A stretch of DNA of 14,685 bases from Kiritimatiellia bacterium (GTDB lineage Bacteria > Verrucomicrobiota > Kiritimatiellia > RFP12 > UBA3636), in assembly GCA_017476965.1 (NCBI GenBank), contig JAFUXX010000004.1:1-14685 (forward strand), given 5' to 3'. The translations under genes were made by a program, and so were the position numbers. Below the pieces are notes generated by a model. The model made no database searches. It saw nothing but the letters and a program-made list of their open reading frames with translations, and was not told the DNA's origin. Shown here piece by piece: positions 1 through 14,685 of this stretch (position 1 is its first letter; each line of letters opens with the position of its first letter).

Positions 1-3000
1 CCGACGAGGGGGCCGCGCCGCGCGAAGCTCCGGCCAAGAAGCGCGCGCGGGAGGACGCTTCGCTCGTGCAGCAGGCGCTCGGAGGGCGGGCGCTTGGCGT
101 CTACGTGTCCGGAGGGCGCGGAAGCGTGGCGCTCAAGGCGTCGCTCGCGCAGCTCGTCGATGCCGAGGAGCGGGCGAGCATCCGGCGGGAGAACGCCGCC
201 GCCGGCGGCACGGAGGCGGACTACCGCGCCGCCGTCGCGGAGCGCGTCCGCGCGAACATGCTCGACGACTCGCCGCGCGCCGCGCAAGTGCTCGCGCACG
301 AGATCGGGCACTGGATCGACGACTTGCCGGAGCTTGGCGGAGTCCTGCGCGAGCGCGGAAACGTGCTCGGTCACATCGCCTCGCTGAAACGCTACCTCTC
401 CAAGACGCTGTTTCTCGACCCGAAGGAACACGGGGGCTTCGACTGGGACGAGGGCAGGATTCCGGGACTCTCGAAGGAGGAGCGCGCGGCAATCGTGCGC
501 GCGGCCGAAAAGGGGATCAAGCGCGAGGACTTCGCATCGGATCAGGATTTCGCGGCCGCGAAACGCAAGGCACGTCGCGAAGCGCTCGAAAACGCGATGA
601 TCGAAAGGGGGCTCGCGAAATACGGGACCGTGCGCGGCGAGCTCGACGACCTGATTGCCTGGTACCGCCAGAGCGATCACGCCCCGGAGTACTACCAGAA
701 GCCTTGGGAAATGTTCGCCGAGGCGTTTTCCGCCTGGCTCTACTACCCGAAGACCGCGGCGGCGAAAGCGCCGACGTTCTGCAAGCTCATCGAAAACTGG
801 GGGCCGAAGAAGGGCGAAATCTGGAACGCGGTAAGGGAGGCGCAGCGGCGCGGCGGCGGCTTCGAGGAAGCGCTCGGAAACGCGGGCGGCGGCTTCCTGC
901 AGCGCTTCCGCGAGCGGATGCAAGCCACGACGGCGGCTTTCTACAAGCTCGAGGGCTTCCGCCGTCCGGACGCGCGTTCGCTCGACGAGCGTTTCCGCGA
1001 CTGGTACGGCGACGTCCTGGCCGTCTTATCCGGCGAGCTGCGCTGGGTGGACTGGGCGAGCCGCAAGCTCGAAAAGTTCCGCACCGGCAGCAGCGCGCAA
1101 GGCGGCTGGGGCACGGCCGCCGGAGCGCAAGCGCGCGCCAGCGTCCACGAGTACACCCACGCCAGCACCCTTGCCGAGTACGAGCTGGCGCGCTTCCGCA
1201 CCGAAGTGCTGCCGCACCTGGAGCGCGGCGGCGCGACGATCCAGGACCTCGACGTGTATCTCACGCTCAACCGCGTGGCGGGCGAAGTGCTGGGCGCCGA
1301 GTCGCAGGGCGGCCGCGCAAACCTCTTCAACCCCGGCGGCCTCACGAGCGCGAGCGCCCGCGCGTATCTCGAAAAGTGGCGGCAGGAATCGCCCGCGACA
1401 TTCGAGACCGCGAAAAGCGCCGCCGGGATCTTCGCGAAAATCCGGCGCGAAACCGTCCTGCCGTTCGCCGAACGGCAATCGGGCATCGGCGAAGCGGAGA
1501 TGCGGGAAATGCTCGAAAACGACGCCTACGCGCGTTTCATGCAACTCTTCGCCCCGCGCGAAAGCCGCGCCGCTGCCGCACAGGGCGAAATGCGGGCCTC
1601 GAGCGGCATCCGCCACCAGCACACCGGCATGTTGGCGCAAAACGTTTCGCCGAGCCTCGCAACGCTCATGGGCGACGGGCAAATCTACTTCGACAGCGGC
1701 CTCAATGGCGCGCGGCGCGACGCCGTGGCGCTGCTCCGTGAAGTCTTCCCGGACGCGGTGCGCCTCGCGCCGCTGAAATTCGATCCGAAAACGCGCACGA
1801 TGGTCCCCGACCAGACGCACGGCGGCGGCTGGCGCACGGTCGTCTTCCGCGAGCGCGGCGAAGACGGCAAGAGCCGCCTCGTCGGCTACGACGTGCGGGA
1901 CTGGGCCGCCGCGGGCCTTCTCGGCGTCACGGCGCCGTACAAAGGCCCCGGAGCCGGATTTTTGCGCGCGCTCGACGCCGTGGGCGGATTCACCGCCAGG
2001 AGCGTGACGCAACTCTCCTGGGGCTTCAACCTTTTGAACCCGTTCCGCGACCGCAGCGGCATGTTGCGCAACATGCCCGTCGCCGAAAACGCCGGCGCTG
2101 CGGAAAAGTGGATCGGCGACGTCGGGAGCGCCGTGCGGTCCATCGCCAACGGCGCGGGCCGCGCCCGGCAGGGAGGCACCGAAGCGCACCCGCTCCTCAT
2201 GGAAGCCCTGAAAGCCGGCGCAATGCCGGGCGGCGACTTCAGCGGCTGGAGCTTCAACCGCACCGCTGCGCGCGCCCTGGAGCAGCTGCTGCGCGGCGGC
2301 GACGAAGCAACCGTACTCAAAGCCGCCGACGAAGTGGTGCGCTCCCTCGGCCTCGACCCCGCCCTTGTCGCCTCGCAGCGCAAGACATTGGGCGTCCTGG
2401 GCGGCGCATGGGAAAAAATCCGCAACGCGTACAACTGGCTCCCGGAGCACATGGTGCGGACGGAGACCAACGGCAAAGCCGCAGCGTACGCCAAAGTCCG
2501 CCGCGCCCATCCCGACTGGGACCCTCGGCGCTGCGCCGAATTCGCGGCGCGCTACCTCGGCACTCCCGACCCGCAAGCGCCCGGACTCATCGCCCAGATA
2601 CCGGGCTTCCGCCTGTTGTCGATGTTCTACACGATGACGACGCGCGGCATCGGCGACCAGATCCTCGGAGCCGCGCGCCTGCAGCCCGGCCTCATGGCCC
2701 GCCGCTTGCTGACGCACGAGGCGCTGCGGCAGCTCGGAAACAATTCCTGGTGGCTCCTCGTCGGCACCGGCGCCGGCACCGGCCTCGTGGGAGCGTTGCG
2801 GCGCCTCGCCGCGAAGTCCGACGAGGACGAAGAGGATGTGGCGTACTACAAGCGCGGCCTGGCCGCCACCGCCGACGCGCTCGAATGGTACTCCGAAGCG
2901 CAACGCGCGATATCGCCATTCGACCGCGCGAGCGCGCACAACTTCCCGATCTTCACCGTAGACCGGAAACAGGGAAAATTCGCCTACCTGAAAATCCCGT

Positions 3001-3707
3001 ACGACCAGTCGTTTTATCCGATCGACGCCGTGGCGGACTACGCCATGTCGCGCGCGACCGGAATGCGGAATTTCACCGCGCGGGCGTTCTCGGACGCCGT
3101 AGCCGGAAGCGCGCTCCCGAGCCTCGGCCCGGGCGCCAGGCAGATAGGAGTCTTGCTGGGCGGGAGCGACCTGGGAAGCGGCAACCGGAACATCCACCCG
3201 AACGAGGATCGCGGACTGGCGGAACACGTTTGGGATCACCTTGCGACAGCATGGGATATCTGGACCGGACGAGGTTTCGGCATGCTCCCGGCGCGCGGAG
3301 GATTCGCCACCGCATGGGACGATCCCTCGAAAACGCCGTTGGAGCGCCTGCTTGCGATTCCCGGAATGAACAGCCTCGTGCGGCCGTTTTTGCGGGTGTC
3401 CAACCAGGGCGACGCAGAAACCGCGCGCATGATCCAGCGCGCGGTCGAACGCAACAAGAAAGCCGAGCGTCGCGCCGCCGCCGCCATTGCGCGGGACGAA
3501 GAGCCGGCCGCGGCCGACCTCGAAGCGTTGAAGCGCTACGCCGCCGAACCGGGACAAATGGTGCAAAGCGCATGGGAGCGTGACTACATGCGAACCAACA
3601 TGCCGCCCTCGTGGCGAGCGCTGCAAAACGCTCCACGTCGGATGCAAAGCGACCTAATGGAAGAGTTTTCCGTCCGACCGCCGCCCCTGCCGCCGGACGC
3701 TTACTAG
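1..3707 (+). CDS. Large phage/mobile-element polyvalent-type protein with HEIGH metallopeptidase motif (5' partial)
   Basis: The frame is open to the left edge (first full codon at base 3, no stop), so the GTG at 66 is probably internal. The window holds 1234 residues and the start lies outside. Near the N-terminal side, HEIGHWID (bases 297-320) is an HExxH zinc site. About 135 residues later EMFAEAFSAW (from base 708) offers a possible third ligand, as in gluzincin-type domains. The middle is long, charged and helical. The last third has PEHMVRTETN, a motif around GFRLLSMFYTM, then a hydrophobic stretch near 2740-2800 (NSWWLLVGTGAGTG). This order resembles the large polyvalent proteins of phages and conjugative elements, whose C-terminal LPD domains accompany proteases and nucleases. 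The exact LPD family is a guess. Likely role (inferred): a protein packaged in or injected by a phage, or a prophage structural-region protein. No strong U-tract terminator follows. Confidence 0.75.
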   Translation, partial: DEGAAPREAPAKKRAREDASLVQQALGGRALGVYVSGGRGSVALKASLAQLVDAEERASIRRENAAAGGTEADYRAAVAERVRANMLDDSPRAAQVLAHEIGHWIDDLPELGGVLRERGNVLGHIASLKRYLSKTLFLDPKEHGGFDWDEGRIPGLSKEERAAIVRAAEKGIKREDFASDQDFAAAKRKARREALENAMIERGLAKYGTVRGELDDLIAWYRQSDHAPEYYQKPWEMFAEAFSAWLYYPKTAAAKAPTFCKLIENWGPKKGEIWNAVREAQRRGGGFEEALGNAGGGFLQRFRERMQATTAAFYKLEGFRRPDARSLDERFRDWYGDVLAVLSGELRWVDWASRKLEKFRTGSSAQGGWGTAAGAQARASVHEYTHASTLAEYELARFRTEVLPHLERGGATIQDLDVYLTLNRVAGEVLGAESQGGRANLFNPGGLTSASARAYLEKWRQESPATFETAKSAAGIFAKIRRETVLPFAERQSGIGEAEMREMLENDAYARFMQLFAPRESRAAAAQGEMRASSGIRHQHTGMLAQNVSPSLATLMGDGQIYFDSGLNGARRDAVALLREVFPDAVRLAPLKFDPKTRTMVPDQTHGGGWRTVVFRERGEDGKSRLVGYDVRDWAAAGLLGVTAPYKGPGAGFLRALDAVGGFTARSVTQLSWGFNLLNPFRDRSGMLRNMPVAENAGAAEKWIGDVGSAVRSIANGAGRARQGGTEAHPLLMEALKAGAMPGGDFSGWSFNRTAARALEQLLRGGDEATVLKAADEVVRSLGLDPALVASQRKTLGVLGGAWEKIRNAYNWLPEHMVRTETNGKAAAYAKVRRAHPDWDPRRCAEFAARYLGTPDPQAPGLIAQIPGFRLLSMFYTMTTRGIGDQILGAARLQPGLMARRLLTHEALRQLGNNSWWLLVGTGAGTGLVGALRRLAAKSDEDEEDVAYYKRGLAATADALEWYSEAQRAISPFDRASAHNFPIFTVDRKQGKFAYLKIPYDQSFYPIDAVADYAMSRATGMRNFTARAFSDAVAGSALPSLGPGARQIGVLLGGSDLGSGNRNIHPNEDRGLAEHVWDHLATAWDIWTGRGFGMLPARGGFATAWDDPSKTPLERLLAIPGMNSLVRPFLRVSNQGDAETARMIQRAVERNKKAERRAAAAIARDEEPAAADLEALKRYAAEPGQMVQSAWERDYMRTNMPPSWRALQNAPRRMQSDLMEEFSVRPPPLPPDAY

Positions 3708-3722
3708 CACCCCGTCGCGCTC

Positions 3723-3821
3723 CGTGCACCGACCCGCCGATTCATCGGCGGGCTCTCGTCCCCGTCGCCCCGCTTCGCTTTCGCCTCGTGCGCCGACCCG
3801 CCGATTCATCGGCGGGCTCTC
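3723..3821. repeat. Two direct copies of a 35-nt REP-like hairpin repeat
   Basis: Copies at 3723-3757 and 3787-3821 differ at one base (A3728 versus G3792) and lie 64 nt apart. Each holds a perfect hairpin, CCCGCCGA-TTCA-TCGGCGGG, at 3733-3752 and 3797-3816. No T-run follows, so these fit REP elements better than intrinsic terminators, although they could stop transcription from the large upstream gene. They lie just beyond the 3' end of a RAYT-like remnant, as expected for REP sequences. Confidence 0.8.
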
Positions 3822-3943
3822 CCGGCCCCGCTTCCCGTCGCTCTCGCTTCTTTCCCCGCCTTTCACGGCATCCAACGCGGTATCCACAACCCGCCCATCC
3901 ACCGAAACCCCAATAAAATCAACCTTTCCACAAACAACTGAAA

Positions 3944-4159
3944 TTAGTCGGGCATGACCGCGAAGGGCGAAACGGGCTCGATGCAGGGCCATGTGTCGTG
4001 AAAGCGGGAAAGGACCGCCTCGAATGCCTGCGTGATGGCGCTCTTCACGAGCGAACCGTCTTCGGAGATGGCCGAAAAGTCGTGCAAGCCCGGCAGGCGC
4101 TTGAGCGTGACCATGTAGAAAAACGGCGTTTTGTAATCGAATCCGAAGAGGCGCGGCAT
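3944..4159 (-). pseudogene. Truncated Y1/RAYT-like (IS200-type) transposase remnant
   Basis: The 71-residue frame begins MPRLFGFDYKTPFFYMVTLK and ends with PFAVMPD followed by TAA. In REP-associated Y1 transposases of the IS200/IS605 superfamily the same place reads MPDHxH, the HUH metal site, followed by the catalytic tyrosine helix. Here the frame stops on the residue before the first histidine, so neither the HUH site nor the tyrosine remains and the product cannot be an active transposase. No Shine-Dalgarno site is seen before the ATG at 4159, although the frame stays open upstream to 4282. The bases after the stop do not restore the family in another frame, so this looks like a deletion or replacement junction and not a point mutation. 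Family assignment rests on recognising the N-terminal pattern. Confidence 0.68.
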
Positions 4160-4186
4160 GCGCAGGAGACTAGCACCTTGCGCCTT

Positions 4187-4249
4187 GCGGCGCAACCCCG
4201 CAGCGCAGCGCGGGGGCGCAAAACCCAGCCCGCGCGGGGCGCAAAACCC
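4187..4249. repeat. GC-rich short repeats in the leader of the GIY-YIG helicase gene
   Basis: GGGGCGCAAAACCC occurs exactly at 4213-4226 and 4236-4249 (23-nt period). A degenerate unit, GCGGCGCAACCCC, starts at 4187. The segment also folds as CCCCGC (4196-4201) with GCGGGG (4210-4215). It lies 26 to 88 nt before the ATG of the helicase gene. It could be leader structure, an operator, or REP-like debris left with the transposase remnant. No clear promoter is visible in front of the gene. Confidence 0.6.
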
Positions 4250-4274
4250 GCTTGCATGGCAGGAGAAAACACCC

Positions 4275-7082
<2,808 letters not shown>

Positions 7083-7098
7083 TCCACGCGCCCGTGGA
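7083..7098 (+). terminator. Small hairpin directly after the helicase stop codon
   Basis: TCCACG-CGCC-CGTGGA is a perfect 6-bp stem beginning at the first base after TGA. There is no T-run, so intrinsic termination would be weak. It may instead protect the 3' end. Confidence 0.45.
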
Positions 7099-7177
7099 CG
7101 GATGCCGGCCTCTTCGAAAATACGGCCTCGCCGCCCCGCCCGCCGCTGGATTGGAGAAAACATCAAGGAAATGAAGT

Positions 7178-7201
7178 AGCCATTTCACGATCTCAATGGC
7201 T
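7178..7201. repeat. Inverted repeat in the convergent intergenic region
   Basis: AGCCATT (7178-7184) pairs with AATGGCT (7195-7201) over a 10-nt loop. It lies between the 3' ends of the convergent helicase and AAA ATPase genes. Function is unknown; it could be a bidirectional stop. Bases 7099-7177 show nothing else I can name. Confidence 0.45.
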
Positions 7202-7225
7202 TGTTGGCTGTGAAAGCAAGTGTTT

Positions 7226-7312
7226 TCGCAGAAATCAAGGAATTCAGATGGTGGAAATTTCGCAGTTTTCAAGACATTCAAAACGAGAACAATCGCAGTT
7301 TTCAAGACATTC
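7226..7312. repeat. 33-34 nt periodic direct repeats
   Basis: TCGCAGTTTTCAAGACATTC occurs exactly at 7260-7279 and 7293-7312, a period of 33 nt. A weaker unit starting TCGCAG is at 7226, 34 nt earlier. The DNA is AT-richer than its neighbours. Only two units are exact and the intervening 13 bases are short, so this is not a CRISPR array. It abuts copy A of the 177-bp element and may be part of the same mobile or recombinogenic junction. Confidence 0.7.
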
Positions 7313-7328
7313 GCCAGTCGCAAAATGG

Positions 7329-7505
7329 GGCGTCGCGCCGGGGCTGTTCCTTGCGTGACCTTGCAATTTTTACCGCGCAGGTAAAAATTGCATTGACTTC
7401 GTGCCGGCGCCTGTCTTGTTCCAGCCCCCAAGACCGCGCCGCCGCGCAGTTCCTCCCGTGGCGCGAATTTTGCGCCCGAATGGCCGAAGCGCCGCATTCC
7501 TCCGC
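7329..7505. repeat. 177-bp intergenic element, copy A (left flank of the AAA ATPase gene)
   Basis: Aligned by eye with copy B (8954-9129) it shows about 13 substitutions and one 1-nt gap, roughly 92% identity, in the same orientation. It contains a perfect 13-bp inverted repeat, TGCAATTTTTACC (7362-7374) and GGTAAAAATTGCA (7380-7392), with loop GCGCA. A second weak fold, GGCGC...GCGCC, is near 7460-7476. No terminal inverted repeats and no transposase are present. The element may be a MITE-like repeat, a structured RNA or a recombination substrate. Confidence 0.82.
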
Positions 7506-7507
7506 GC

Positions 7508-7526
7508 CGCCATCGTGACGGCGGGG
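7508..7526. repeat. REP-like hairpin just past the 3' end of the AAA ATPase gene
   Basis: CCGCC pairs with GGCGG across a short loop. The right part, TGACGGCGGGG (7516-7526), recurs at 8932-8942 and 10791-10801 in the same orientation. It lies 16 nt past the stop codon of the minus-strand ATPase gene and may act as its transcript end, although it has no U-tract. Confidence 0.55.
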
Positions 7527-7541
7527 ATGGAGGTGCGGGGA

Positions 7542-8750
7542 TTAGTAGAGCAGTCCGAACATCCACAGGGGGATGCGGTTGCCGCGGCCGATTTCGAGGT
7601 CGTCCACGGCGAGGTAGCTTCGGGGCAGGTCGGCGATCTGGCCGAAGGTCTTGCCGGGGCCGCCGACCTCGAAGGTCAAGCGGCCGTCGACGAGGAAGTC
7701 CCCCGCCGCGGGATACGCGAGCGCGTGGCCCGCCGCGGCGAGCTGGTTGCGGAAGAACGTCTCGCGGAGCGTCCCGGTGTCCGGGCGGCGGACGAGCGCG
7801 TGCATCAGGTTCGTGTTGTCGCAGTAGATCTTCTCCGGACGGGAGAGGTTCTTGAGGGTCGCCGAACGGGAGGGCAGCAGTCCCAGCAGTCCGGCTCGTT
7901 CCAGCGCGTTCAGAATGCCGAGGCCGTTGTTGCGGTCGGTCTCCAGCTCGCGCCAGAGGTCGGTCATCCGCGGGACCTGCGGCACGGAGGAGGCGAGCAC
8001 CATCAGCATCTTGCGAGCCTTGCGGATCGTGGCGAGGGTGACGGGCTCGGTCCGCGGATAGTCAATCTCCAGGATTTGGTCGGCGATGCGGCGGATGCGC
8101 TCGTGGTAGCCGGTCTTCGACTCCTTGTAGAAGGGGTAGTATCCCGACTTGAGGTAGCGCGAGAAGAGGGGAAGGATCTTCACGCGGGCCGCGATGTCGC
8201 GGGCGATGGCGGCGTGGCGGGACAGGAGCTCCTCCCAACCTACGGCGGGCAGGTCCAGCGCGCCGTCGAAGGACAGAAACTCGCGGAAGGAGAGGCCGGC
8301 GAGCGTGTAGGGAAGCTGCCGGCGCGAGAGGTCGCCGCCGCCCTTCTCCAGCTGCAGCAGGGAGGAGCCGCTGTAGACGACGTGCAGCGCCGGGAAGTCG
8401 TCGTGCAGGTTCTTCACGAGCGTCTGCCAGCCCTCGAAGTGGTGCACCTCGTCGAGGAAGATGTGCGTGCCGCCGTGGGAGTCGAGCCACGCGGCCACGT
8501 CCTGGACGCGGTGCGTGGCGAACCAGAGGTTGTCGAGCGAGACGTAGAGGGCGACGGTCGGATCGGGCGTCGTCTCCTTGATGCGCTGGAGCATCATCGT
8601 CGTTTTGCCCGTTCCCTTCGGCCCTTTGATACAAAGCAGCCGGTCGTTCCAGTCGATCTGCGGATAGAGCGATCGGTGGAACGCGGACGAGGTCGCGCGC
8701 ATCCGGCGCTCCTGCGCGTCGAACAGTTCCTGAAGGTCTTCTTCGTTCAT
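7542..8750 (-). CDS. AAA family ATPase (AAA_14-like) with C-terminal nuclease-like fold remnant
   Basis: The 402-residue protein has Walker A GPKGTGKTT (43-51), Walker B HIFLDEVHHF (97-105) and a sensor-like VVYSGSS (124-130), as in AAA_14 ATP-binding proteins. A helical linker (about 190-300) includes a winged-helix-like segment (MTDLWRELETDRNNGLGILN). The C terminus carries GDFLVDGRLTFEVGG and closes with IPLWMFGLLY, the ending I recognise from a widespread family of AAA ATPases. The D/E positions in LVDGRLTFEVGG sit where DUF4143-type proteins have a PD-(D/E)XK core, but the E-x-K is not intact, so nuclease activity is doubtful. The first frame start is ATG 8750, with only a weak AAGAAG ribosome site. 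A sigma-70-like promoter and a 15-bp leader inverted repeat lie upstream. The gene is bracketed by 177-bp direct repeats. The biological role of the family is not established; defence or self-regulation is inferred. Confidence 0.82.
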   Translation of the reverse strand: MNEEDLQELFDAQERRMRATSSAFHRSLYPQIDWNDRLLCIKGPKGTGKTTMMLQRIKETTPDPTVALYVSLDNLWFATHRVQDVAAWLDSHGGTHIFLDEVHHFEGWQTLVKNLHDDFPALHVVYSGSSLLQLEKGGGDLSRRQLPYTLAGLSFREFLSFDGALDLPAVGWEELLSRHAAIARDIAARVKILPLFSRYLKSGYYPFYKESKTGYHERIRRIADQILEIDYPRTEPVTLATIRKARKMLMVLASSVPQVPRMTDLWRELETDRNNGLGILNALERAGLLGLLPSRSATLKNLSRPEKIYCDNTNLMHALVRRPDTGTLRETFFRNQLAAAGHALAYPAAGDFLVDGRLTFEVGGPGKTFGQIADLPRSYLAVDDLEIGRGNRIPLWMFGLLY

Positions 8751-8771
8751 CGGAGGTCTTCTTTCTCGAAT

Positions 8772-8818
8772 ATCCGGAAATACTGTTTTCGCCCAAGAGA
8801 AAGTATTTCCAGATATCG
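8772..8818 (-). promoter_or_regulatory. 15-bp inverted repeat in the 5' leader of the AAA ATPase gene
   Basis: Arms ATATCCGGAAATACT (8772-8786) and AGTATTTCCAGATAT (8804-8818) match at 14 of 15 positions across a 17-nt spacer. If the promoter at 8829-8857 is right, transcription starts near 8822, so both arms are in the leader, 22 nt before the ATG. It may be an operator for a dimeric repressor or an RNA hairpin. Confidence 0.72.
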
Positions 8819-8828
8819 TCTGGCGGAT

Positions 8829-8857
8829 ACACTAGCAGACTCCGCCCCGCGAATCAA
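8829..8857 (-). promoter_or_regulatory. Sigma-70-like promoter of the AAA ATPase gene
   Basis: On the minus strand TTGATT (8857-8852) is followed by a 17-nt spacer and TAGTGT (8834-8829). The same -35 hexamer and spacing precede the DUF234-type ATPase gene at 14156-14184. Confidence 0.6.
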
Positions 8858-8877
8858 GCGGAAAACGCGGTTTTGCA

Positions 8878-8899
8878 CGGCGCGGCTTCCTCCGCGCCG
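8878..8899. repeat. GC-rich perfect hairpin
   Basis: CGGCGCGG-CTTCCT-CCGCGCCG is an 8-bp perfect stem in the divergent intergenic region, just upstream of the minus-strand promoter. There is no U-tract. It is part of a run of hairpin-forming repeats extending to 8945. Confidence 0.55.
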
Positions 8900-8912
8900 A
8901 CTGCGGCCTCCT

Positions 8913-8945
8913 CCCCGCCGCCGCTGCCGACTGACGGCGGGGCGG
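8913..8945. repeat. REP-like hairpin repeat, left copy (flanks the hipBA module)
   Basis: CCCCGCCG (8913-8920) pairs with CGGCGGGG (8935-8942). Twenty-eight bases, 8918-8945, recur exactly at 10777-10804 just beyond hipA in the same orientation. The shared part contains the TGACGGCGGGG motif also seen at 7516-7526. Confidence 0.75.
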
Positions 8946-8953
8946 CCGGGGGT

Positions 8954-9129
8954 GGCGTCGCGCCGAGGCTGTTCCTTGCGTGGTCTTGCACTTTTTACCT
9001 GCAGGTAAAATTTGCATTGACTTCGTGCCGGCGCCTGTCTTGTTCCAGCCGCCAAGACCGCGCCGCCGCGCAGTTCCTCCCGTGGCGCGAATTTTGCGCC
9101 CAGATGGCCGGAGCGTCGTATGCCTCCGC
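8954..9129. repeat. 177-bp intergenic element, copy B (upstream of hipBA)
   Basis: This 176-nt copy matches copy A (7329-7505) at roughly 92% by hand alignment. Its central fold is an 18-nt perfect palindrome, TTTTACCTGCAGGTAAAA (8993-9010), with two mismatches further out compared with the perfect arms of copy A. The direct repetition brackets the complete AAA ATPase gene and its promoter. Confidence 0.82.
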
Positions 9130-9161
9130 TGTTTTGGCTCTCCACCGCGGATGTTTTACAG

Positions 9162-9190
9162 TTGACCTTGCAAGGCATATTGGATAGAAT
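9162..9190 (+). promoter_or_regulatory. Sigma-70-like promoter of hipBA
   Basis: TTGACC (9162-9167), a 17-nt spacer and TAGAAT (9185-9190) form a near-consensus promoter. Transcription would start near 9197, giving a leader of about 27 nt before hipB. The first operator palindrome overlaps the -35 box and spacer. Confidence 0.78.
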
Positions 9191-9216
9191 TTTCGCCATC
9201 AACTGACCTTGCGAGG
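9163..9216 (+). promoter_or_regulatory. Paired HipB-type operators
   Basis: TGACCTTGCAAGG (9163-9175) and TGACCTTGCGAGG (9204-9216) differ at one base and are 41 nt apart, close to four helical turns. Their cores are CCTTGCAAGG (a perfect 10-bp palindrome) and CCTTGCGAGG (near-perfect). The first overlaps the -35 region and the second covers the Shine-Dalgarno GAGGA (9213-9217). HipB proteins are known to bind palindromic operators and autorepress, so these are the natural candidates. Confidence 0.7.
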
Positions 9217-9223
9217 AACTTTG

Positions 9224-9535
9224 ATGATATACCAAACAACGGCGGAAATGCTCGCGTCGCTTGGAGAAGGTCTCCGTGCGGCGAGGCTGGCGGACAACCT
9301 GTCGCAGACAACGGCGGCGGCGAGGAGCGGCATTTCCCTCAAGGCCGTCCGCAATCTGGAAGCGGGGAAAAACGCGTCGACCGCTTCGCTTCTGGCGCTG
9401 TGCAAGACGCTGCGCCTCGTGGATTGGATCGCGAACTTGTCGCCGCCCGAAATTTCGGACGCGCTCTTCGACCGTCCGCGCGGCGCGCCGCCACGCCGCC
9501 GCGCCTCGCCCGCCAGGAGGAGAAGCCATGCCTAG
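9224..9535 (+). CDS. hipB: HipB-like antitoxin (XRE-family HTH repressor)
   Basis: The protein has 103 residues. Residues about 12-62 form an XRE/HTH_3 domain (LGEGLRAARL, then LSQTTAAARSGISLKAVRNLEAG and a following helix), as in HipB and other antitoxins that both bind operator DNA and neutralise their toxin. The tail after residue 80 is basic and rich in Arg and Pro, and probably disordered. ATG 9224 is preferred over the in-frame TTG at 9209 because GAGGA (9213-9217) lies 6 nt before it. The stop overlaps the hipA start by 8 nt (ATGCCTAG), so the pair is translationally coupled with the antitoxin made first. Two near-identical palindromic operators in the promoter and over the ribosome site point to autoregulation. 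Confidence 0.85.
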   Translation: MIYQTTAEMLASLGEGLRAARLADNLSQTTAAARSGISLKAVRNLEAGKNASTASLLALCKTLRLVDWIANLSPPEISDALFDRPRGAPPRRRASPARRRSHA

Positions 9536-10748
9536 TTTTTCACGGGCGGAGCGGGTGTTCGTGTCGCTCTGGGGGCACCGCGTCGGGACGATCGTTCCGG
9601 CGCCGCGCCAGGGTCTTTATGCCTTTCGCTACGATCCGGCGTTCGTGGCGTCCGGCATCGAAATCTCTCCGCTATCGATGCCCCTGCGCCGCGAGCCCTA
9701 CGCTTTCCCCGAGCTGCCGCAAGAAGACTTCGGCGGGTTGCCGCCCGTTTTTGCCGATTCGCTGCCCGACTCGTTCGGCACGGGACTGGTTGACTTGATG
9801 CTCTCCGAGCGTGGTCTTTCCCGCCGCGAAATCACTCCGCTCGACCGTCTTGCCTACATCGGAAAACGCGGCATGGGCGCGTTGTGCTACGAGCCGGACC
9901 GCGGCCCTCGCGCGGTTCCGTCCGCTTTGGAGATGCGCACACTGGCGGAGTCGGCGAAACGCGCGGCCAGCGGCGAACTGGCCGGCATGTCCGGCGACGA
10001 CGCGCTGCGCGCCATCATCCGTCTCGGCTCCTCCGCCGGCGGCGCGCAGGCCAAGGCCGTTGTCGGGTGGAACCGCGTTGACGGACGCTTCGTCTTCGGC
10101 GACGGCGAATTGCCCGCGGGATTCGAACATTGGATCGTGAAATTCACGCCCAAGGAGTTTCCGTGGCGCGGAGACGCGGAATTCGAGACTAATCGCGCGG
10201 CTGCGGCGGCCGGCGTCGCGACGGCCGAATCGCGCATCGTCGAGATCGACGGCTTGCGCCACTTCATGTCGCGGCGGTTCGACCGGGAGGGGACCCGCCG
10301 CCACCATCTGCTTTCTTTCGCCGCCCTCGCACACCTGCCTCCGGGTGCGCCGCCCCGTTTGCGCAGCTACGAGCAACTTTTCGCAGCCGCTGACGCCCTC
10401 GGACTGCCATGGGAAGACCGCGAAGAGATTTTCCGGCGCATGGCGTTCAACGTCCTCGCGGGCGAATGCGACGACCATGCCAAGAACGTGTCGTTCTTGT
10501 TGCGCGAAGGCGGGGCATGGCGGCTCGCCCCGGCCTACGACCTTACCGGCTCGCGCTTTCCGTCGTCGGACCCTTGGAGCGCGCATGGCGGAGTGCACCA
10601 GCTTTCCGTCGGAGGCAAGTTCTCCGGAATCGGAGAAGACGATCTGTTGCGGGTAGCCGACCGCTTCGGAATCGGCACCGCTTCTTCCGTCCTCGCCCGC
10701 GTCCGCGCCGCGGTTTCGCAGTTGCCGCCCGCTCCCCCCGGGCGCTGA
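9528..10748 (+). CDS. hipA: HipA-like serine/threonine kinase toxin
   Basis: The 406-residue protein is full length for HipA: an N-terminal domain (about 10-120) and the kinase-like HipA_C. Visible motifs are the glycine-rich loop SSAGGAQAK (168-176), ATP-binding Lys in HWIVKF (about 205), HFMSRRFDRE (245-254), the catalytic loop GECDDHAKN (312-320) and the metal-binding AYDLT (336-340). In characterised members the toxin phosphorylates glutamyl-tRNA synthetase or another aminoacyl-tRNA synthetase and causes growth arrest and persistence; the target here is unknown. The usual GNTDDH loop reads GECDDH, keeping both aspartates. ATG 9528 has a strong AGGAGGAG site (9515-9522). It overlaps hipB by 8 nt. 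A hairpin repeat 20 nt beyond the stop may end the transcript. Confidence 0.92.
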   Translation: MPSFSRAERVFVSLWGHRVGTIVPAPRQGLYAFRYDPAFVASGIEISPLSMPLRREPYAFPELPQEDFGGLPPVFADSLPDSFGTGLVDLMLSERGLSRREITPLDRLAYIGKRGMGALCYEPDRGPRAVPSALEMRTLAESAKRAASGELAGMSGDDALRAIIRLGSSAGGAQAKAVVGWNRVDGRFVFGDGELPAGFEHWIVKFTPKEFPWRGDAEFETNRAAAAAGVATAESRIVEIDGLRHFMSRRFDREGTRRHHLLSFAALAHLPPGAPPRLRSYEQLFAAADALGLPWEDREEIFRRMAFNVLAGECDDHAKNVSFLLREGGAWRLAPAYDLTGSRFPSSDPWSAHGGVHQLSVGGKFSGIGEDDLLRVADRFGIGTASSVLARVRAAVSQLPPAPPGR

Positions 10749-10768
10749 TCGTGCCGGCATGCGCTTCT

Positions 10769-10804
10769 CCCCGCCACCGCCGCTGCCGACTGACGGCGGG
10801 GCGG
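10769..10804. repeat. REP-like hairpin repeat, right copy (after hipA)
   Basis: CCCCGCC (10769-10775) pairs with GGCGGGG (10795-10801). Bases 10777-10804 repeat 8918-8945 exactly. It starts 20 nt after the hipA stop and could serve as a transcript end, although there is no U-tract. The DUF3592-like fragment on the other strand loses its family similarity just before this repeat. Confidence 0.75.
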
Positions 10805-11203
10805 GCGCCGTTCAGAAAACGGCAAGCGGGTGTTCGTCGGAAACGGGGCGCCAGCCGGGTAGGCGGCGACGACGCGCTCGGCCAGCCGTGCGTCGCTCGA
10901 CGAGGGCGTCAGGACGGCGTAGCGGTCGCTTTCGCGGCGGACGCCGCCGACCTCGTAGGCGTAGACGATCCGCGGCGAATGCATCGGGCCGTAGGACGAG
11001 TGTCCCGACGGGCGGCCGCGCTTCCATTCGACGTGGACGTCGCTGCGGAGCACCACCGCGTCGACGGGGACCCATCGCCGCGCCTCGAGCGTCTCGACAA
11101 GGCGCGGAACCATCATGATGCAGAAGAACAGCCCGATCCCGATCGGCAGGAGGGAGGCGGTCGGAAAGCGGCGCCGTTCGGCGGGGCGGGCGGGGGCGGT
11201 CAT
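10805..11203 (-). pseudogene. DUF3592-like membrane protein, 3'-truncated
   Basis: The frame starts MTAPARPAER at ATG 11203. It has one hydrophobic helix (about 18-36, SLLPIGIGLFFCIMMVP) and a soluble part with the DUF3592 pattern: RWVPVDAVVL, then PRIVYAYEVGGVRRESDRYAV and ERVVAAYPAG. Family members normally continue with a proline-rich loop and a second membrane helix. Here similarity ends within about 15 codons of YPAG, next to the hairpin repeat at 10769-10804. The open frame then runs on to a stop at 10535, antisense to hipA, which is unlikely to be real. A shifted frame gives GWRPVSDEHPLAVF then TGA (10812-10814), resembling the family's PxxPxxAVL loop, so a one-base frameshift is possible. 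DUF3592 has no settled function. I treat it as a broken gene. Confidence 0.6.
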
Positions 11204-11458
11204 GGCCGGGTTGGGGGGGAAGGCTTGGCGGGGGCGACCTTGGGGACGGAGAAGTGTTCACAATCTCCAATTGAGCATCATTGGCACAAATCCAAATGCA
11301 AATCTCGCTCCGCGGACTTCGCGCGTGGTTCTTCCGCGAATCTTGCGAATGTGGGTTCCCCGTTTGTAGAAGCGCATGTCGCGGAGTCTGGGGAAACAAC
11401 GACGAAAGTCAAGTTAAAGGGGTAAATATCGTGATTGTTTTGAAAAATACACCGTTAT
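11204..11458. other. Intergenic stretch, mostly unassigned, with a GACCTTGGGGACG repeat
   Basis: No supported gene. GACCTTGGGGACG (11236-11248) recurs at 12566-12578 on the other side of the AbiE genes. In both places it is followed by AT-richer DNA with CAAT/CATT words. The rest, to 11458, shows no convincing promoter or fold. Confidence 0.5.
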
Positions 11459-11519
11459 CCTAAATAACGCAGTTGGCCCCGCGCGCTTCCGCGCGCGGCG
11501 GCCAACTGCGTTATTTAGG
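11459..11519. terminator. 61-nt near-perfect palindrome overlapping the AbiEii stop codon
   Basis: Arms CCTAAATAACGCAGTTGGCC (11459-11478) and its exact complement (11500-11519) enclose CCGCGCGC-TTCC-GCGCGCGG, giving a 28-bp stem with one unpaired C at 11499. The TAA stop of AbiEii (11513-11511) is inside the gene-side arm. On the minus strand a short T-run (TTTTTC) follows 10 nt later. It could be a very strong transcript end, or a symmetric insertion that cut the toxin gene. Confidence 0.8.
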
Positions 11520-11900
11520 CTGAATGGTGTCGCCGGTTTCGTCCTGCAGCGAGAGGAACACGCGTTTGCCGCGGTAGTCCTGCTGGCGCAGCTCGACGAT
11601 GTATCCGACGAGCGAGACGGAGATGCCCTCGACGCCGCCGTCCAGGTCCCGGACGAGCGCACGGATGGAGTCGTTGTCGATGGAACGGCGGACGAAGTCC
11701 ACGTCGAGGTCAAGCGTCGTGCGGCGGATGTCGCCGGAAAGCGCGGCCATCACGACGCCGCCCTTGATCGCGAGCTGCGCTCGGTATCCGCTCCGGGCGA
11801 AGGCCGCGAGCAGGATGTCCTGCGCGAGCTTCTCCTCGACGTTGGCGTCGGTGTATCCCCGCGCCTTCAAGGCGGCTTCGGCTTCGGCGAAGGTCGGCAT
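11511..11900 (-). CDS. AbiEii-type nucleotidyltransferase toxin, C-terminally truncated
   Basis: The frame begins MPTFAEAEAALKARG at ATG 11900, with GGAG 8 nt upstream. Residues about 40-72 hold the nucleotidyltransferase signature: AIKGGVVMAAL, then RRTTLDLDVDF, that is GG followed by D-x-D, as in AbiEii toxins of type IV toxin-antitoxin systems. Characterised relatives act as GTP- or CTP-dependent nucleotidyltransferases, some of which modify tRNA. At 129 residues it is far shorter than the usual 250-300; the C-terminal half that completes the active site is missing. The frame ends GDTIQPK then TAA, inside the palindrome. It overlaps the AbiEi stop by one base (TGATG), so the operon order is AbiEi then AbiEii. 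The toxin is probably inactive or altered. Confidence 0.78.
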   Translation of the reverse strand: MPTFAEAEAALKARGYTDANVEEKLAQDILLAAFARSGYRAQLAIKGGVVMAALSGDIRRTTLDLDVDFVRRSIDNDSIRALVRDLDGGVEGISVSLVGYIVELRQQDYRGKRVFLSLQDETGDTIQPK

Positions 11901-12442
11901 CAGAAGATCTCCTTTTCGATCGAGGCGAGGATGGAGTCGCGGTGCGGGAAGGCGTCGAGGTAGTCGTCGATCTTCGCCGGATACAGTTCCGCGCTCCGTT
12001 CCCGGAGCGAGAGGTCGACCTCCTTGTAGAGTTCGTAGGGGAGCTTCGTCCGCATCCGCACCGCGTCGATGGCGAGCCGTTCGAGGTCGTAGGTGCGGCA
12101 CGGCGCGCCGTTCCAGACGATCTCCGCGACGCCGACACCGAGGACCGAGGCGGGGACGAAGTGCTGCCGGATGCGGCGGTCGGCGATCCGGGTCGTATCG
12201 CGCGCCGTCGCCAGATGGAGCCGGTCGGGGACGACATCCGTGAGCCCTTGGTAGAAGAACGCGCTGTCCATTGCGACCACGGCCGCGGGGTAGCGCTTGG
12301 CGGCGAGTTCGGGAAGTCCCGGCGAGGGCTTGTCCGAATAGAGGCCCCACCCGACGCGGTGCAGCTCCCCCGCGTCCAGCTTCTTGCGGATCGCATAGTC
12401 GGAGCCGAGCCATTCCCGGCATTCCAGATAGGTTCGGATCAT
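11900..12442 (-). CDS. AbiEi-like antitoxin / transcriptional repressor
   Basis: The protein has 180 residues from ATG 12442, chosen over the upstream in-frame ATG at 12520 because GGAGG precedes it by 10 nt and the promoter -35 box (12515-12520) overlaps the upstream start. The N terminus has a winged-helix-like segment, SDYAIRKKLDAGELHRVGWGLYS (residues about 14-37), the hallmark of AbiEi antitoxins. The following RYPAAVVAMDSAFFYQGLTD and the later YDLERLAIDAVRMRTKLPYE also fit the family. In known systems AbiEi represses its own promoter and counteracts AbiEii without stable contact. It is full-length while its partner is truncated, which suggests a decayed pair in which the repressor may persist. 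Confidence 0.8.
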   Translation of the reverse strand: MIRTYLECREWLGSDYAIRKKLDAGELHRVGWGLYSDKPSPGLPELAAKRYPAAVVAMDSAFFYQGLTDVVPDRLHLATARDTTRIADRRIRQHFVPASVLGVGVAEIVWNGAPCRTYDLERLAIDAVRMRTKLPYELYKEVDLSLRERSAELYPAKIDDYLDAFPHRDSILASIEKEIF

Positions 12443-12491
12443 CTTTGGATTTCCTCCACTGATTCCTTGTATTTGTGGATGATTTCCAAAA

Positions 12492-12520
12492 AGTCTACCA
12501 CGTGTCCCAATCGATTGCAA
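12492..12520 (-). promoter_or_regulatory. Sigma-70-like promoter of the AbiE operon
   Basis: TTGCAA (12520-12515), a 17-nt spacer and TAGACT (12497-12492) on the minus strand. The leader of about 43 nt carries GGAAATC twice (in 12483-12489 and 12445-12452) and GGAATC once; such spaced repeats could be where AbiEi binds. Confidence 0.68.
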
Positions 12521-12554
12521 GCGGATTCGGCAAACGGCGGTTCACAGTAGGTCG

Positions 12555-12670
12555 TGGACAATGGAGACCTTGGGGACGAGGGGGGGGCCTTGGAGACCGG
12601 GGGACGGGGGAATTGTCACAAACGCTCATTGTCCATCAATCGGCAATGTCATCAATGACAATTGGCGGGG
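12555..12670. repeat. Degenerate GACCTTGG / GGACAATG intergenic repeats
   Basis: GACCTTGGGGACG (12566-12578) repeats 11236-11248. It is followed by variants of the same word (GCCTTGGAGACC, near 12587) and a run of G. TGGACAATG (12555-12563) and CATTGTCCA (12627-12635) are inverted copies, as are AATTGTCA (12611-12618) and TGACAATT (12656-12663). The segment separates the AbiE promoter from the 3' end of the next gene. Confidence 0.6.
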
Positions 12671-12683
12671 GAACCGGTTCCGT

Positions 12684-14123
12684 TCAATCCAGTCCGAGGA
12701 GGCGGGAGAACGGAACGATGGAGTCGAAGTAGCCGTCGGCTTCTACGGAGGGGGCAAGGCGACCGTCGTAGACGAGGGCCGTCCGCACCGACATTTCCCT
12801 CGGGGCCGCGAAGCGACGGACCTTCTCCTTCATTTCGTCGAGGATTTCCCGGCCGATCTCGCGCTGACGCTTGATCTCGACCAGGCAGAAGGACATCCGG
12901 GTTTGCAGCAGAAGGTCGATCTGGACGCCCTTCTTCCGGGATTTCTCGGAGGCGATCCGGCGGTAGGGGGCGGCCGAGAAGACGTGGCTCCGGTCCAGAC
13001 CCAGCAGCGGCAACAGCAGCCGGTAGTTGTTGATTACGAGGTTTTCGAACTGCAACCCCAGCACCGTCGGCCAACCCGCAAACCGGTCCATCCCGCCGAA
13101 GGCGAACGATCCGGCGTCGATCGTTTCTTTCGCCGGCTCGACGCACTTCAGGTAGAACCGCGCATAGTTGTCCTTGAGCCGGAAACGCCGGCTTCTGACC
13201 TCGGCGCCGGTCTCCGGGTTCCGCCCGGGATCGGAAGCGACGAAGCCGGCCTCCTCCAGTTCGTCCATCGCGGAAGAGATCCGCCCGCTCTTCTCCGTCC
13301 CGAGCGCTTCGGCGATCTCCGTGACGCTCTTCGGCCCGTCCACGAGTGTGCGGGCCGCCGTCGCCGCGAACTTCGGCTGGTGCGTCACGACGTCCGAGAA
13401 CATCTCGTCGAAATCCACGCGGAGGACCGACCTCGGGAGGAACGCGAGCTTCCGGATGTTCTCGTCCGCCGAAAGTCCCGGATCGATCTCCTCCAGATAC
13501 CGGGGCACCCCGCCCGTGACGGAAAGCACGTCGAGGATGTCGCGCGCCGAGGTCCGCGACGCCGCCTCCCCCCAGAACTTTGCGCACTCGTGCGGCGGCA
13601 ACTCGTCCGCGACGACGTCCAGCGACCGGCGCCCAACGTAGGCGCGGTTGTCGATGAAGTTTTCCCGGACCCAACTGGAGACGCTCCCGCATAGCACCAC
13701 GACCAGCCGGTCGTGCGGCTTGAGGTAGTTCTCCCAAGCGATGCGGAAGATGTCGGCGAACAACGGCTCTCCGAATCCCAGCCAGGAGATTTCATCGAGA
13801 AGGACAACCGTCCGCTCGTCATCCCGGATCCGGCCGGCGAGCCGGATGAACGCGGCGAGCCAGTTGTGCGGCGTCGAGTCTTCGCTCCCCGTCTGTGCGG
13901 CCAGCTGCTCGGCGAAGACCCGCAATTCGTCCTCGCTCGTGGTCGTGGGGCCCGGCCGTGCCCCTTCGATCTTGATGAACCGGCTCCGTGTCGCTTTCGC
14001 GAACTGCCGGATGAGCGTGCTTTTCCCGATCCTTCGCCGGCCCCTGCACGTCACGAGGGAGGAGACTCGCTTGCGCCACAGGCCCTCCAGCTGGAGAATC
14101 AAGTCTTCGCGTCCGAAAAACAT
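12684..14123 (-). CDS. Archaeal-type ATPase with C-terminal PD-(D/E)XK nuclease-like domain (ATPase_2 + DUF234)
   Basis: The 479-residue protein starts at ATG 14123 with AGGAGG 6 nt upstream. Residues 1-230 are an ATPase_2-type STAND-like domain: Walker A GRRRIGKST (28-36), Walker B VVLLDEISWL (106-115), sensor LCGSVSSW (144-151) and the family motif TGGVPRYLEE (203-212). A winged helix follows (about 250-300, KSVTEIAEALG...ISSAMDELEEAGFV). The C terminus (about 355-440) is DUF234-like with an apparently intact PD-(D/E)XK core: GVQIDLLLQ with D403, then CLVEIKRQ with E416 and K418. The organisation suggests an ATP-gated nuclease or DNA-binding switch; no member's role is firmly known. The sense strand has its own promoter and no overlapping partner. 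It shares neither repeats nor close sequence with the AAA ATPase at 7542-8750 beyond the general fold. Confidence 0.88.
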   Translation of the reverse strand: MFFGREDLILQLEGLWRKRVSSLVTCRGRRRIGKSTLIRQFAKATRSRFIKIEGARPGPTTTSEDELRVFAEQLAAQTGSEDSTPHNWLAAFIRLAGRIRDDERTVVLLDEISWLGFGEPLFADIFRIAWENYLKPHDRLVVVLCGSVSSWVRENFIDNRAYVGRRSLDVVADELPPHECAKFWGEAASRTSARDILDVLSVTGGVPRYLEEIDPGLSADENIRKLAFLPRSVLRVDFDEMFSDVVTHQPKFAATAARTLVDGPKSVTEIAEALGTEKSGRISSAMDELEEAGFVASDPGRNPETGAEVRSRRFRLKDNYARFYLKCVEPAKETIDAGSFAFGGMDRFAGWPTVLGLQFENLVINNYRLLLPLLGLDRSHVFSAAPYRRIASEKSRKKGVQIDLLLQTRMSFCLVEIKRQREIGREILDEMKEKVRRFAAPREMSVRTALVYDGRLAPSVEADGYFDSIVPFSRLLGLD

Positions 14124-14155
14124 CCTTCGCCTCCTTGTTTTGACAACGCCGGCGC

Positions 14156-14184
14156 AGTCTATCAGGTCGTAGAATGGGAATCAA
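14156..14184 (-). promoter_or_regulatory. Sigma-70-like promoter of the ATPase_2/DUF234 gene
   Basis: TTGATT (14184-14179), a 17-nt spacer and TAGACT (14161-14156) on the minus strand, giving a leader of about 26 nt. The -10 box is identical to that of the AbiE operon and the -35 to that of the AAA ATPase gene. Confidence 0.65.
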
Positions 14185-14190
14185 GAGAAA

Positions 14191-14225
14191 TTTCACCTAT
14201 TTTGCATTTTGTGAAATAGGTGAAA
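14191..14225 (-). terminator. 12-bp perfect inverted repeat between the membrane-protein gene and the ATPase gene
   Basis: TTTCACCTATTT (14191-14202) and AAATAGGTGAAA (14214-14225) pair with an 11-nt loop. On the minus strand it starts 14 nt after the stop at 14240 and is followed by TTTCTCTT, so it may terminate the upstream gene. It also ends 6 nt before the -35 box of the next gene and could instead be an operator. Confidence 0.65.
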
Positions 14226-14239
14226 ACAATTCAGGCGAT

Positions 14240-14685
14240 TCAAGAGACGTTCTCCGCGCTCTCCGCGTGGGTTTCTTCCGCGGCGCGCCGCACGGCGGAA
14301 CGGCGGAGCGCCTCGAGCGCGGCGAGGGCGGCGGGGAGGTCGGCGGCGGGGAGGTCGCGGAAGGAGAGCGAGTTGAAGGCGTTGGGGCGGCGGGGAACCG
14401 GGGAGCCCGGACGGGCGGAGAAACAGACCGTCGCGCGGTCGCGTCCGACGCGTTTCACGACGGGCGGGAACAGGCGTTCGGGATCGTCCGCGACCTCGCC
14501 ATACGGCGAAACGGCGCGGCGGTCGGTGACGAGGAAGGGCCGCGCGTTCCATTGGCGGCGGCGCTCCGCCGGGCGATACCAGAACGCTTCGGCCGCCATC
14601 GCAACGGCGACGCTGCCCGGCACCGCCAGCGCGACGAGGCCGAAGAGCCAGCCGAACGGCCAGCCGATCCGGACGAAAAGCAGCC
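14240..14685 (-). CDS. Membrane protein, PH-like (5' partial)
   Basis: The frame is open to the right edge, so the start is outside. The visible part begins LLFVRIGWPFGWLFGLVALA, a hydrophobic segment likely to be a membrane helix that continues to about AVAMAAEAFWY. A soluble part follows with NARPFLVTDRRAVSPYGE and FNSLSFRDLPAADLP. The LVTDRR pattern and the later short beta-rich segments resemble bacterial PH-like domains attached to membrane helices; the match is by eye and weak. The end, EETHAESAENVS, is low-complexity and looks like an intergenic repeat word (GCGGAGA) translated, so the true C terminus may be altered. It could originally have neighboured the DUF3592-like fragment at 10805-11203, with the AbiE and ATPase genes lying between them now. 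Confidence 0.6.
   Translation of the reverse strand, partial: LLFVRIGWPFGWLFGLVALAVPGSVAVAMAAEAFWYRPAERRRQWNARPFLVTDRRAVSPYGEVADDPERLFPPVVKRVGRDRATVCFSARPGSPVPRRPNAFNSLSFRDLPAADLPAALAALEALRRSAVRRAAEETHAESAENVS

Follow-up and report, generated by a model that had tools for sequence, protein, structure and literature searches.

How do single defence or addiction genes reach genomic islands in which no transposon or integrase is visible? We addressed this open question with a 14,685-nt stretch of DNA from a Kiritimatiellia bacterium (contig JAFUXX010000004.1, positions 1 to 14,685), called the window throughout, which is contig C163 of its own assembly (494 contigs, 75% complete). An AAA_14 ATPase gene lies in the window between direct repeats A and B, a hipBA pair between hairpin repeats hp1 and hp2, and an AbiE pair between two copies of a third repeat family (Table 1). 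We regard it as probable, though well short of certain, that single-gene modules are exchanged by recombination inside short intergenic repeats such as these, without an integron integrase. Two observations in relatives of the bacterium bear on the question: a pair of corresponding loci, of which one has a gene that the other lacks, with the junction inside a short repeat; and an ATPase unit, bounded by repeats, that occurs in two different contexts.

The pair of loci was found in two sister species. Contigs G002:C343 and G010:C69 are collinear over their shared part, with two exceptions: a gene that G010 lacks and a segment that has been replaced. The extra gene (G002:C343, 2579-4183) stands between two repeats of the third family, whereas G010:C69 lacks the gene and has a single repeat. 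Ninety-two sites distinguish the two G002 repeats and their flanks; on its upstream side G010 follows the upstream copy at 41 of 43 sites, and on its downstream side the downstream copy at 44 of 44, the flank sites beyond the G010 repeat following trivially from synteny. The switch falls inside the repeat, where three sites follow one copy, one follows the other and one follows neither. G010:C69 is an empty site with one repeat that is recombinant between the two G002 copies.

A second line of evidence came from a 1.48-kb unit, consisting of repeat, promoter, ATPase gene and repeat, that occurs in genomes G047 and G057 with 98.3% identity (25 differences in 1483 columns). In the 6.5 kb compared, the two genomes have nothing in common beyond the outer repeats. 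The differences are unevenly placed, with 12/163 at the two ends against 13/1320 in the core (p = 3e-6, with limits set post hoc), and 9/145 in the repeats against 0/128 in the non-coding core (p = 0.004). The pattern points to exchange inside resident repeats, and not to transfer of a whole composite. Transposition of a composite element is the alternative to be weighed here: the palindromic flanking repeats would be miniature inverted-repeat transposable elements (MITEs), and a transposase acting in trans would move two copies together with the gene between them. The G047/G057 repeat does have 15-nt inverted ends (TAACACACGGATTTG/CAAATCCGTGTGTTA), and the unit terminates at the repeats' outer edges. 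A comparable element of about 225 nt in G002:C116, palindromic over its length and with AACACAGAGCCACACGGAG ends, is present three times (L119:1288-1512, 4755-4979 and 6355-6578), and a DUF4143 ATPase gene lies between two of these copies in direct orientation, one of which begins right after the stop codon of the gene. However, inspection by eye revealed no target duplication at the G047/G057 unit beyond a shared TA that is itself part of the inverted ends, and the repeats there diverge more than the core, as expected for exchange in resident repeats. The empty site in G010:C69 keeps one resident repeat, and A and B have an internal 31-nt palindrome only, without terminal inverted repeats. 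We consider composite MITE transposition unlikely, if worth keeping in mind.

Repeats of this kind were not distributed evenly among genes. We scored flanking direct repeats at single genes that encode 150 aa or more and have sufficient flanking sequence, dropping duplicates and genes with short flanks. They were found at 13 of 36 AAA ATPase genes, which are homologues of the window ATPase and their AAA kin, but at none of 133 other genes outside array loci (p = 2.5e-10). Repeats of at least 60 nt flanked 8/36 AAA genes (p = 2e-6). Non-AAA genes within repeat-array loci (12/99 with flanking repeats) were kept apart from the 133, and the hipBA pair of the window with its hairpins was not scored positive in this single-gene test. 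The gene calls behind these tests, and behind the counts of repeat neighbours and the AbiEii lengths of sister species given below, were made with a simple codon-usage script. An earlier version of the test (8/26 ATPases, 22/241 controls) was superseded, its controls still holding duplicate ATPase loci and other AAA ATPases. The AAA-flanking repeats are unrelated between loci, except for the G047/G057 pair and two neighbouring genes in G003. Among the open-access titles and abstract openings listed, we found none on direct repeats at AAA_14/DUF4143 genes; PMC4406477 mentions DUF4143 a single time.

The enrichment could also be taken to mean that the AAA_14/DUF4143 ATPase is self-mobile and drives its own spread, with A and B as non-autonomous, MITE-like deletion derivatives. 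Such an enzyme would account for the recurrence of flanking repeats, mostly without sequence relationship to one another, at AAA genes, for the near-identical unit in two contexts, and for A and B as a duplicated ATPase module with an internal deletion; the ATPase of G047 also shows a weak match (E = 0.003) to TniB, a family of transposition ATPases, which is below the cut-off and covers no more than 25 residues at the nucleotide-binding site. Besides that match, Pfam showed no integrase or transposase family among the ATPases on which it was run. The repeats measure 23-241 nt, which is unlike the target duplications of one enzyme, and genes other than ATPases in the array loci (the 12/99 above) also lie between repeats. 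We hold a self-mobile ATPase to be highly improbable.

The ends of shared DNA blocks were compared with the positions of repeats. Of the 32 ends of 10 blocks that sister contigs share, 12 fall within 60 nt of a repeat, against a null mean of 2.2 and a maximum of 9 in 2000 shifts; the other 20 ends lie more than 60 nt from any repeat. These 20 ends are what would be expected if the repeats were passive, that is, if genes moved by ordinary horizontal transfer and repeats merely marked tolerated breaks in plastic genomes. The same may be said of the abundance of the third family, which has, as a lower bound, 4-82 copies per genome in 10 sister species, and of gene-level mosaicism that occurs where these repeats are missing, as around hipBA in four sister loci. 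Passive repeats sit poorly with the recombinant repeat in G010, with the sharp edges of the G047/G057 unit and with the count of 0/133 for other genes, and this explanation appears rather doubtful to us.

We then considered the window itself. Repeats A and B are 92% identical with one indel, and hp1 and hp2 contain identical 28-mers within a 41-nt repeat of 90% identity. The preliminary description had reported both pairs, together with a third pair sharing a 13-mer, as direct repeats, and a sequence search confirmed their positions and orientation. The window contains 71 exact pairs of at least 20 nt, against 0 in 50 order-2 Markov resamples, and the A/B and hairpin pairs are far above chance expectation. 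They are not independent pairs, as had been thought. With just 5 nt between hp1 and B, the first two pairs interleave as [A, 36 nt, ATPase, hp1] followed by [B, 79 nt, hipBA, 18 nt, hp2], the 79 nt reaching up to the start of hipB. A deletion between A and B that removed module 1 would, as a consequence of the interleaving, also remove hp1, and a deletion between the hairpins that removed module 2 would also remove B. The divergence of the two pairs is about equal (92% vs 90%), which fits, as a putative history, a single duplicated frame with a different gene in each slot.

Both A/B and the 28-mer occur in two copies, and no more, in their own genome. Full-length A/B was not found in phages or plasmids, and its 23-nt core had no exact match among 84,980 species genomes, a set from which the records closest to the window's own have possibly been left out. 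A 19-nt match to A/B in viral contigs stops at 20 nt and looks like chance. The hairpin, searched as an exact 25-mer, had no match in viral contigs, and the core of the third family had no exact match there either. A 20-nt sequence, TCGCAGTTTTCAAGACATTC, occurs three times at 7226-7312 (two copies identical, one 75%) at a spacing of 33-34 nt, a short way to the left of repeat A.

Each of the three modules has a stretch of DNA homology in sister species. Module 1 is matched over 7543-8869 (G002:C158, 87%), module 2 over 9159-10702 (77%; four loci in three genomes, namely G002, G009 and two places in G007) and module 3 over 11520-12528 (87%; G002:C343 and G010:C69), and the surroundings of all three differ from those of the sister loci on both sides. 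The G002 orthologue of the window ATPase (91% aa identity), for instance, has a different location. The gaps between the module borders and the nearest repeats are 37, 38, 29, 64, 172 and 33 nt. The proposal that modules coincide with repeat brackets is thus right roughly but not exactly, as the shared units stop 29-172 nt away; hipA, for its part, runs on to 10748, beyond the homology border at 10702. On the right of hipBA, the DUF3592 proteins of five relatives compared, of seven matched, continue beyond the point at about 10847, some 40 nt from hp2, where homology to the gene of the window ends. The truncated DUF3592 gene implies that no clean insertion produced the hipBA side of the locus. 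The left neighbour of the locus has distant homologues only, in 2 of 10 sister species, and the flanks of the locus are shared by no sister species.

The sequences of A and B themselves offered a further clue. In the search of 58 genomes, A was matched elsewhere by short pieces alone. Short matches in G040, G048 and G051 were set aside because they lie within long open frames. Two short pieces of A also match the C-terminal codons of an AAA_14-DUF4143 ATPase gene (Pfam) at G003:C48, 341-1525, a locus that we had fetched for this C-terminal likeness (E = 6e-4 per genome, 59 genomes searched). Positions 33-81 of A/B align to the upstream inverted repeat and TTGAC region of the G003 ATPase, and positions 96-145 to its C-terminal codons; the matches are collinear and the intervening ~1.1 kb is missing. 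B scores 44 and 51 for the two parts of the G003 ATPase, whereas the best of 2000 shuffles gave 30 and 33, respectively (0/2000 reach either), and the combined score of 95 compares with 50 for the next best of 263 genes outside the window. A and B look like decayed modules of a DUF4143-type ATPase, in which an operator/promoter is joined to C-terminal codons. The same middle is missing from both, which suggests that a single deleted module was copied. A broader proposal, that AAA_14/DUF4143 ATPase genes are minimal mobile units that spread with their operator, leave deleted derivatives behind and build frames for toxin-antitoxin-like genes, seems to us quite doubtful, although the weak TniB match is a hint in its favour. 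These ATPases occur as several scattered copies per genome; if the pattern seen here were wider, those copies would be explained by travel, with recognisable relics left behind.

The third pair had been called the weakest, its exact match being 13 nt long. Within the window the 13-mer, GACCTTGGGGACG, has just two occurrences, in direct orientation, at 11236 and at 12566. Chance alone would give about 13 exact pairs of 13-mers (143 were observed, 69 of them in A/B and 16 in the hairpins), and so the 13-mer alone was rejected as evidence. The pair is nevertheless real, since each copy belongs to a repeat family. A profile drawn from the first copies turned up many more. A sequence-only model built from seven sister copies, with the window excluded, found the core of the left copy (E = 5e-11) and missed the right copy, which matches another subtype of the family (score 58, against a maximum of 35 in 5000 shuffles). 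Across 59 genomes, the model found at least five copies in the window's own genome. The family was not found in eight other genomes of the same taxonomic family and is present in at least 12 of 40 genomes from the other families of the order; all these counts, including those for the sister genomes, are lower bounds from scoring part of the first-look candidates.

We located 47 copies of the third family, chosen from 82 matches in 38 sources. At 34 of them both neighbouring genes share the orientation of the repeat, and 15 start 29-33 nt ahead of the stop codon of the upstream gene. Where stop codons lie at this fixed place in the repeat, unrelated proteins carry the same short C-terminal tail (HAESAE-like), a pattern seen in sister contigs L077, L078 and L119-L131. 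The arrays in G002 and G010 mostly have one gene per repeat and keep one orientation per contig, which holds for all 28 hits, on 10 contigs with at least two hits, among the matches listed. Whether the repeats are common genome-wide, the check suggested in the preliminary description, is answered in the affirmative for the third family; yet most located copies lie at gene ends, and they mark cassette-like gene units in two sister species. Some members are head-to-head palindromes, and a weak head-to-head pair is present in G010:C69. In the window's own genome, head-to-head copies form long hairpins at L134:3423-3519 (C199) and L135:3408-3518 (C42). Contig C206 of that genome (L138:330-600) carries a sequence of about 120 nt twice in almost identical form, and both copies are strong palindromes of a TCCGCGGACT-like motif.

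Between the two third-family copies of the window, AbiE proved to be incomplete, contrary to the view that each repeat pair encloses a complete transcription unit. AbiEi matches its PADLOC model over 1-180 of 180 positions, and AbiEii covers 6-127 of 265. The 130-aa AbiEii compares with about 284 aa in G002 and 269 aa in G010, and its homology to both ends exactly at the 61-nt palindrome (cut at 11520), which supplies the stop codon and stands in place of the C-terminal half. AbiE thus falls short of a complete type IV toxin-antitoxin pair, which combines a full AbiEi with a full AbiEii nucleotidyltransferase. The palindrome arm has no second copy in its own genome at up to three mismatches. 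We looked for the lost tails of DUF3592 and AbiEii, and nothing better than E = 0.15 was recovered in the window or than E = 0.6 in the six contigs of its own genome that were searched.

On recombination inside intergenic repeats, the locus would be a mosaic of modules (AAA_14 ATPase, hipBA and AbiE), each made up of its gene or genes and their own upstream region. Modules may be gained, lost and exchanged inside repeat copies, by homologous recombination or by template switching; the outer part of each boundary would then come from the resident repeat. A and B would be decayed ATPase modules with the middle deleted; one relic together with a hairpin was probably duplicated, and the two resulting slots would now be filled by the ATPase and hipBA. 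AbiE lies between two members of the genus-wide repeat family and would have been broken later at the palindrome. We infer that the process seen in the sister species also built this locus.

Several observations weigh against this conclusion. No empty site or circle was seen at this locus. The gain or loss of single cassettes without an integrase, as first proposed, has its support in relatives (from the G010 empty site, the block ends, the G047/G057 unit, the enrichment at AAA genes and the integrase search). That search found the integron integrase model TIGR02249 over its cut-off in 0/11 genomes of the genus, with weaker matches in 9/11 of these and in 14/14 control genomes; no control genome exceeded the cut-off and there was no positive control, so its power was not shown. 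Full-length A/B was found in none of the other 58 genomes searched in the order, and the 28-mer hairpin was sought in its own genome, in viral contigs and, by BLAST, in fetched loci, so that a transfer of either module along with its repeats is hypothetical for modules 1 and 2. At hipBA itself, the four closest sister loci have no flanking repeats. The G003 locus was chosen through its C-terminal match, which leaves the upstream match as the sole independent test of the relic idea. At the threshold used, 23/36 AAA genes have no flanking repeats and several of the 13 positive loci have short ones (23-36 nt); with the window and non-independent cases removed, 5/33 AAA genes retain repeats of at least 60 nt (p = 2e-4). 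The block-end figure describes contigs of which 17/18 loci were picked for holding repeats, not whole genomes, and breaks between genes are tolerated anyway, which weakens that test. All genomes compared are draft assemblies, many with 200-600 contigs.

From left to right the genes of the window encode a 1213-aa protein, a T5orf172/ResIII protein, the AAA_14 ATPase (- strand) and HipBA (+ strand), followed on the - strand by DUF3592, AbiEii, AbiEi and an ATPase_2 protein. The 1213-aa protein has no Pfam or PHROGs match at E 0.001. Directly after its gene, a 40-nt direct repeat (93%) at 3718-3757 and 3782-3821 contains the inverted pair CCCGCCGAT/ATCGGCGGG. Rfam gave no match in the window at gathering thresholds, and no tRNA target was found there. 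The functions of the ATPases and HipA are predicted from family membership; the motifs named for the two proteins in Table 1 would be important for catalysis.

Table 1. Coordinates of the repeats, genes and associated elements in the window
Feature	Position	Strand	Remarks
Repeat A	7329..7505	+	177 nt; operator/promoter part ~7361-7409, C-terminal codons ~7425-7473 (putative)
AAA_14 ATPase, 402 aa	7542..8750	-	Walker A GPKGTGKT, Walker B-like IFLDE
ATPase upstream region	8751..8869	-	inverted repeat ATATCTGGAAATACT/AGTATTTCCGGATAT; G002:C158 homology stops at 8869
Hairpin repeat hp1	8908..8948	+	28-nt core 8918-8945; 5 nt before B
Repeat B	8954..9129	+	176 nt; operator/promoter part ~8986-9033, C-terminal codons ~9049-9097 (putative)
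hipBA upstream region	9159..9208	+	common to 4 sister loci; homology begins 9159-9162
hipB-like HTH_3 protein, 108 aa	9209..9535	+	Pfam
HipA kinase, 406 aa	9528..10748	+	Couple_hipA and HipA_C; DDHAKN, YDL motifs
Hairpin repeat hp2	10767..10807	+	28-nt core 10777-10804
DUF3592 gene, 3' end lost	10812..11203	-	homology ends ~10847
Third family, left copy	11226..11347	-	core 11251-11323
Palindrome, 61 nt	11459..11519	.	20/20 arms, 21-nt GC-rich centre; exactly at AbiEii truncation point
AbiEii nucleotidyltransferase, truncated, 130 aa	11511..11903	-	PADLOC, Pfam
AbiEi antitoxin-like protein	11900..12520	-	open reading frame up to 206 aa; homology in two closest sisters begins at residue 25
Third family, right copy	12562..12664	-	subtype seen in G010:C69
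ATPase_2 (PADLOC PDC-S27) gene	12684..14123	-	60% identity over 479 aa to gene in repeat array G002:C116

We finally compared the locus with known systems. The HipBA, AbiE and AAA_14/DUF4143 families are recognised by clear Pfam or PADLOC matches. hipBA has the make-up of a type II toxin-antitoxin pair, an HTH_3 antitoxin followed by HipA, with Couple_hipA and HipA_C above cut-off. The AAA_14 domain of the window ATPase scores 86 bits against a curated cut-off of 27, and the protein matches the PADLOC candidate PDC-S01 (E = 2.6e-20). The window departs from these families in its truncated AbiEii and in its ATPase, itself without a DUF4143 match in Pfam at E 0.001. The attC sites of integrons form a conserved hairpin with R/L boxes. 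The third-family arrays of G002 and G010 may resemble a chromosomal integron or an integrase-less cassette array in the single orientation of their listed repeats, in having mostly one gene per repeat and in stop codons that often lie at a fixed repeat position. Probably unlike integron repeats, members of the third family are alike in sequence, occur as head-to-head pairs in other genomes and, judged by eye from 11 folded copies, have no common hairpin, although one copy folds as a long hairpin; the modules of the window also differ from integron cassettes in having their own upstream regions and mixed orientation. TIME-COMPs are Tn3-derived composite MITEs in which two short repeats, oriented alike or oppositely, enclose other DNA that carries no transposition gene; the TIMEs that compose them measure 262 nt, have inverted ends of 38 nt and in most cases show target duplications of 5-6 bp (PMC4133298). 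Terminal inverted repeats are present in the G047/G057 and G002:C116 elements and not in A/B. Our loci differ from TIME-COMPs in repeats that vary from locus to locus, in the lack of inverted ends on A/B and in one empty site with a single recombinant repeat. They share with TIME-COMP two short repeats that enclose other DNA without a transposition gene, and the TIME-COMP composite MITE is the nearest described kind (PMC4133298).

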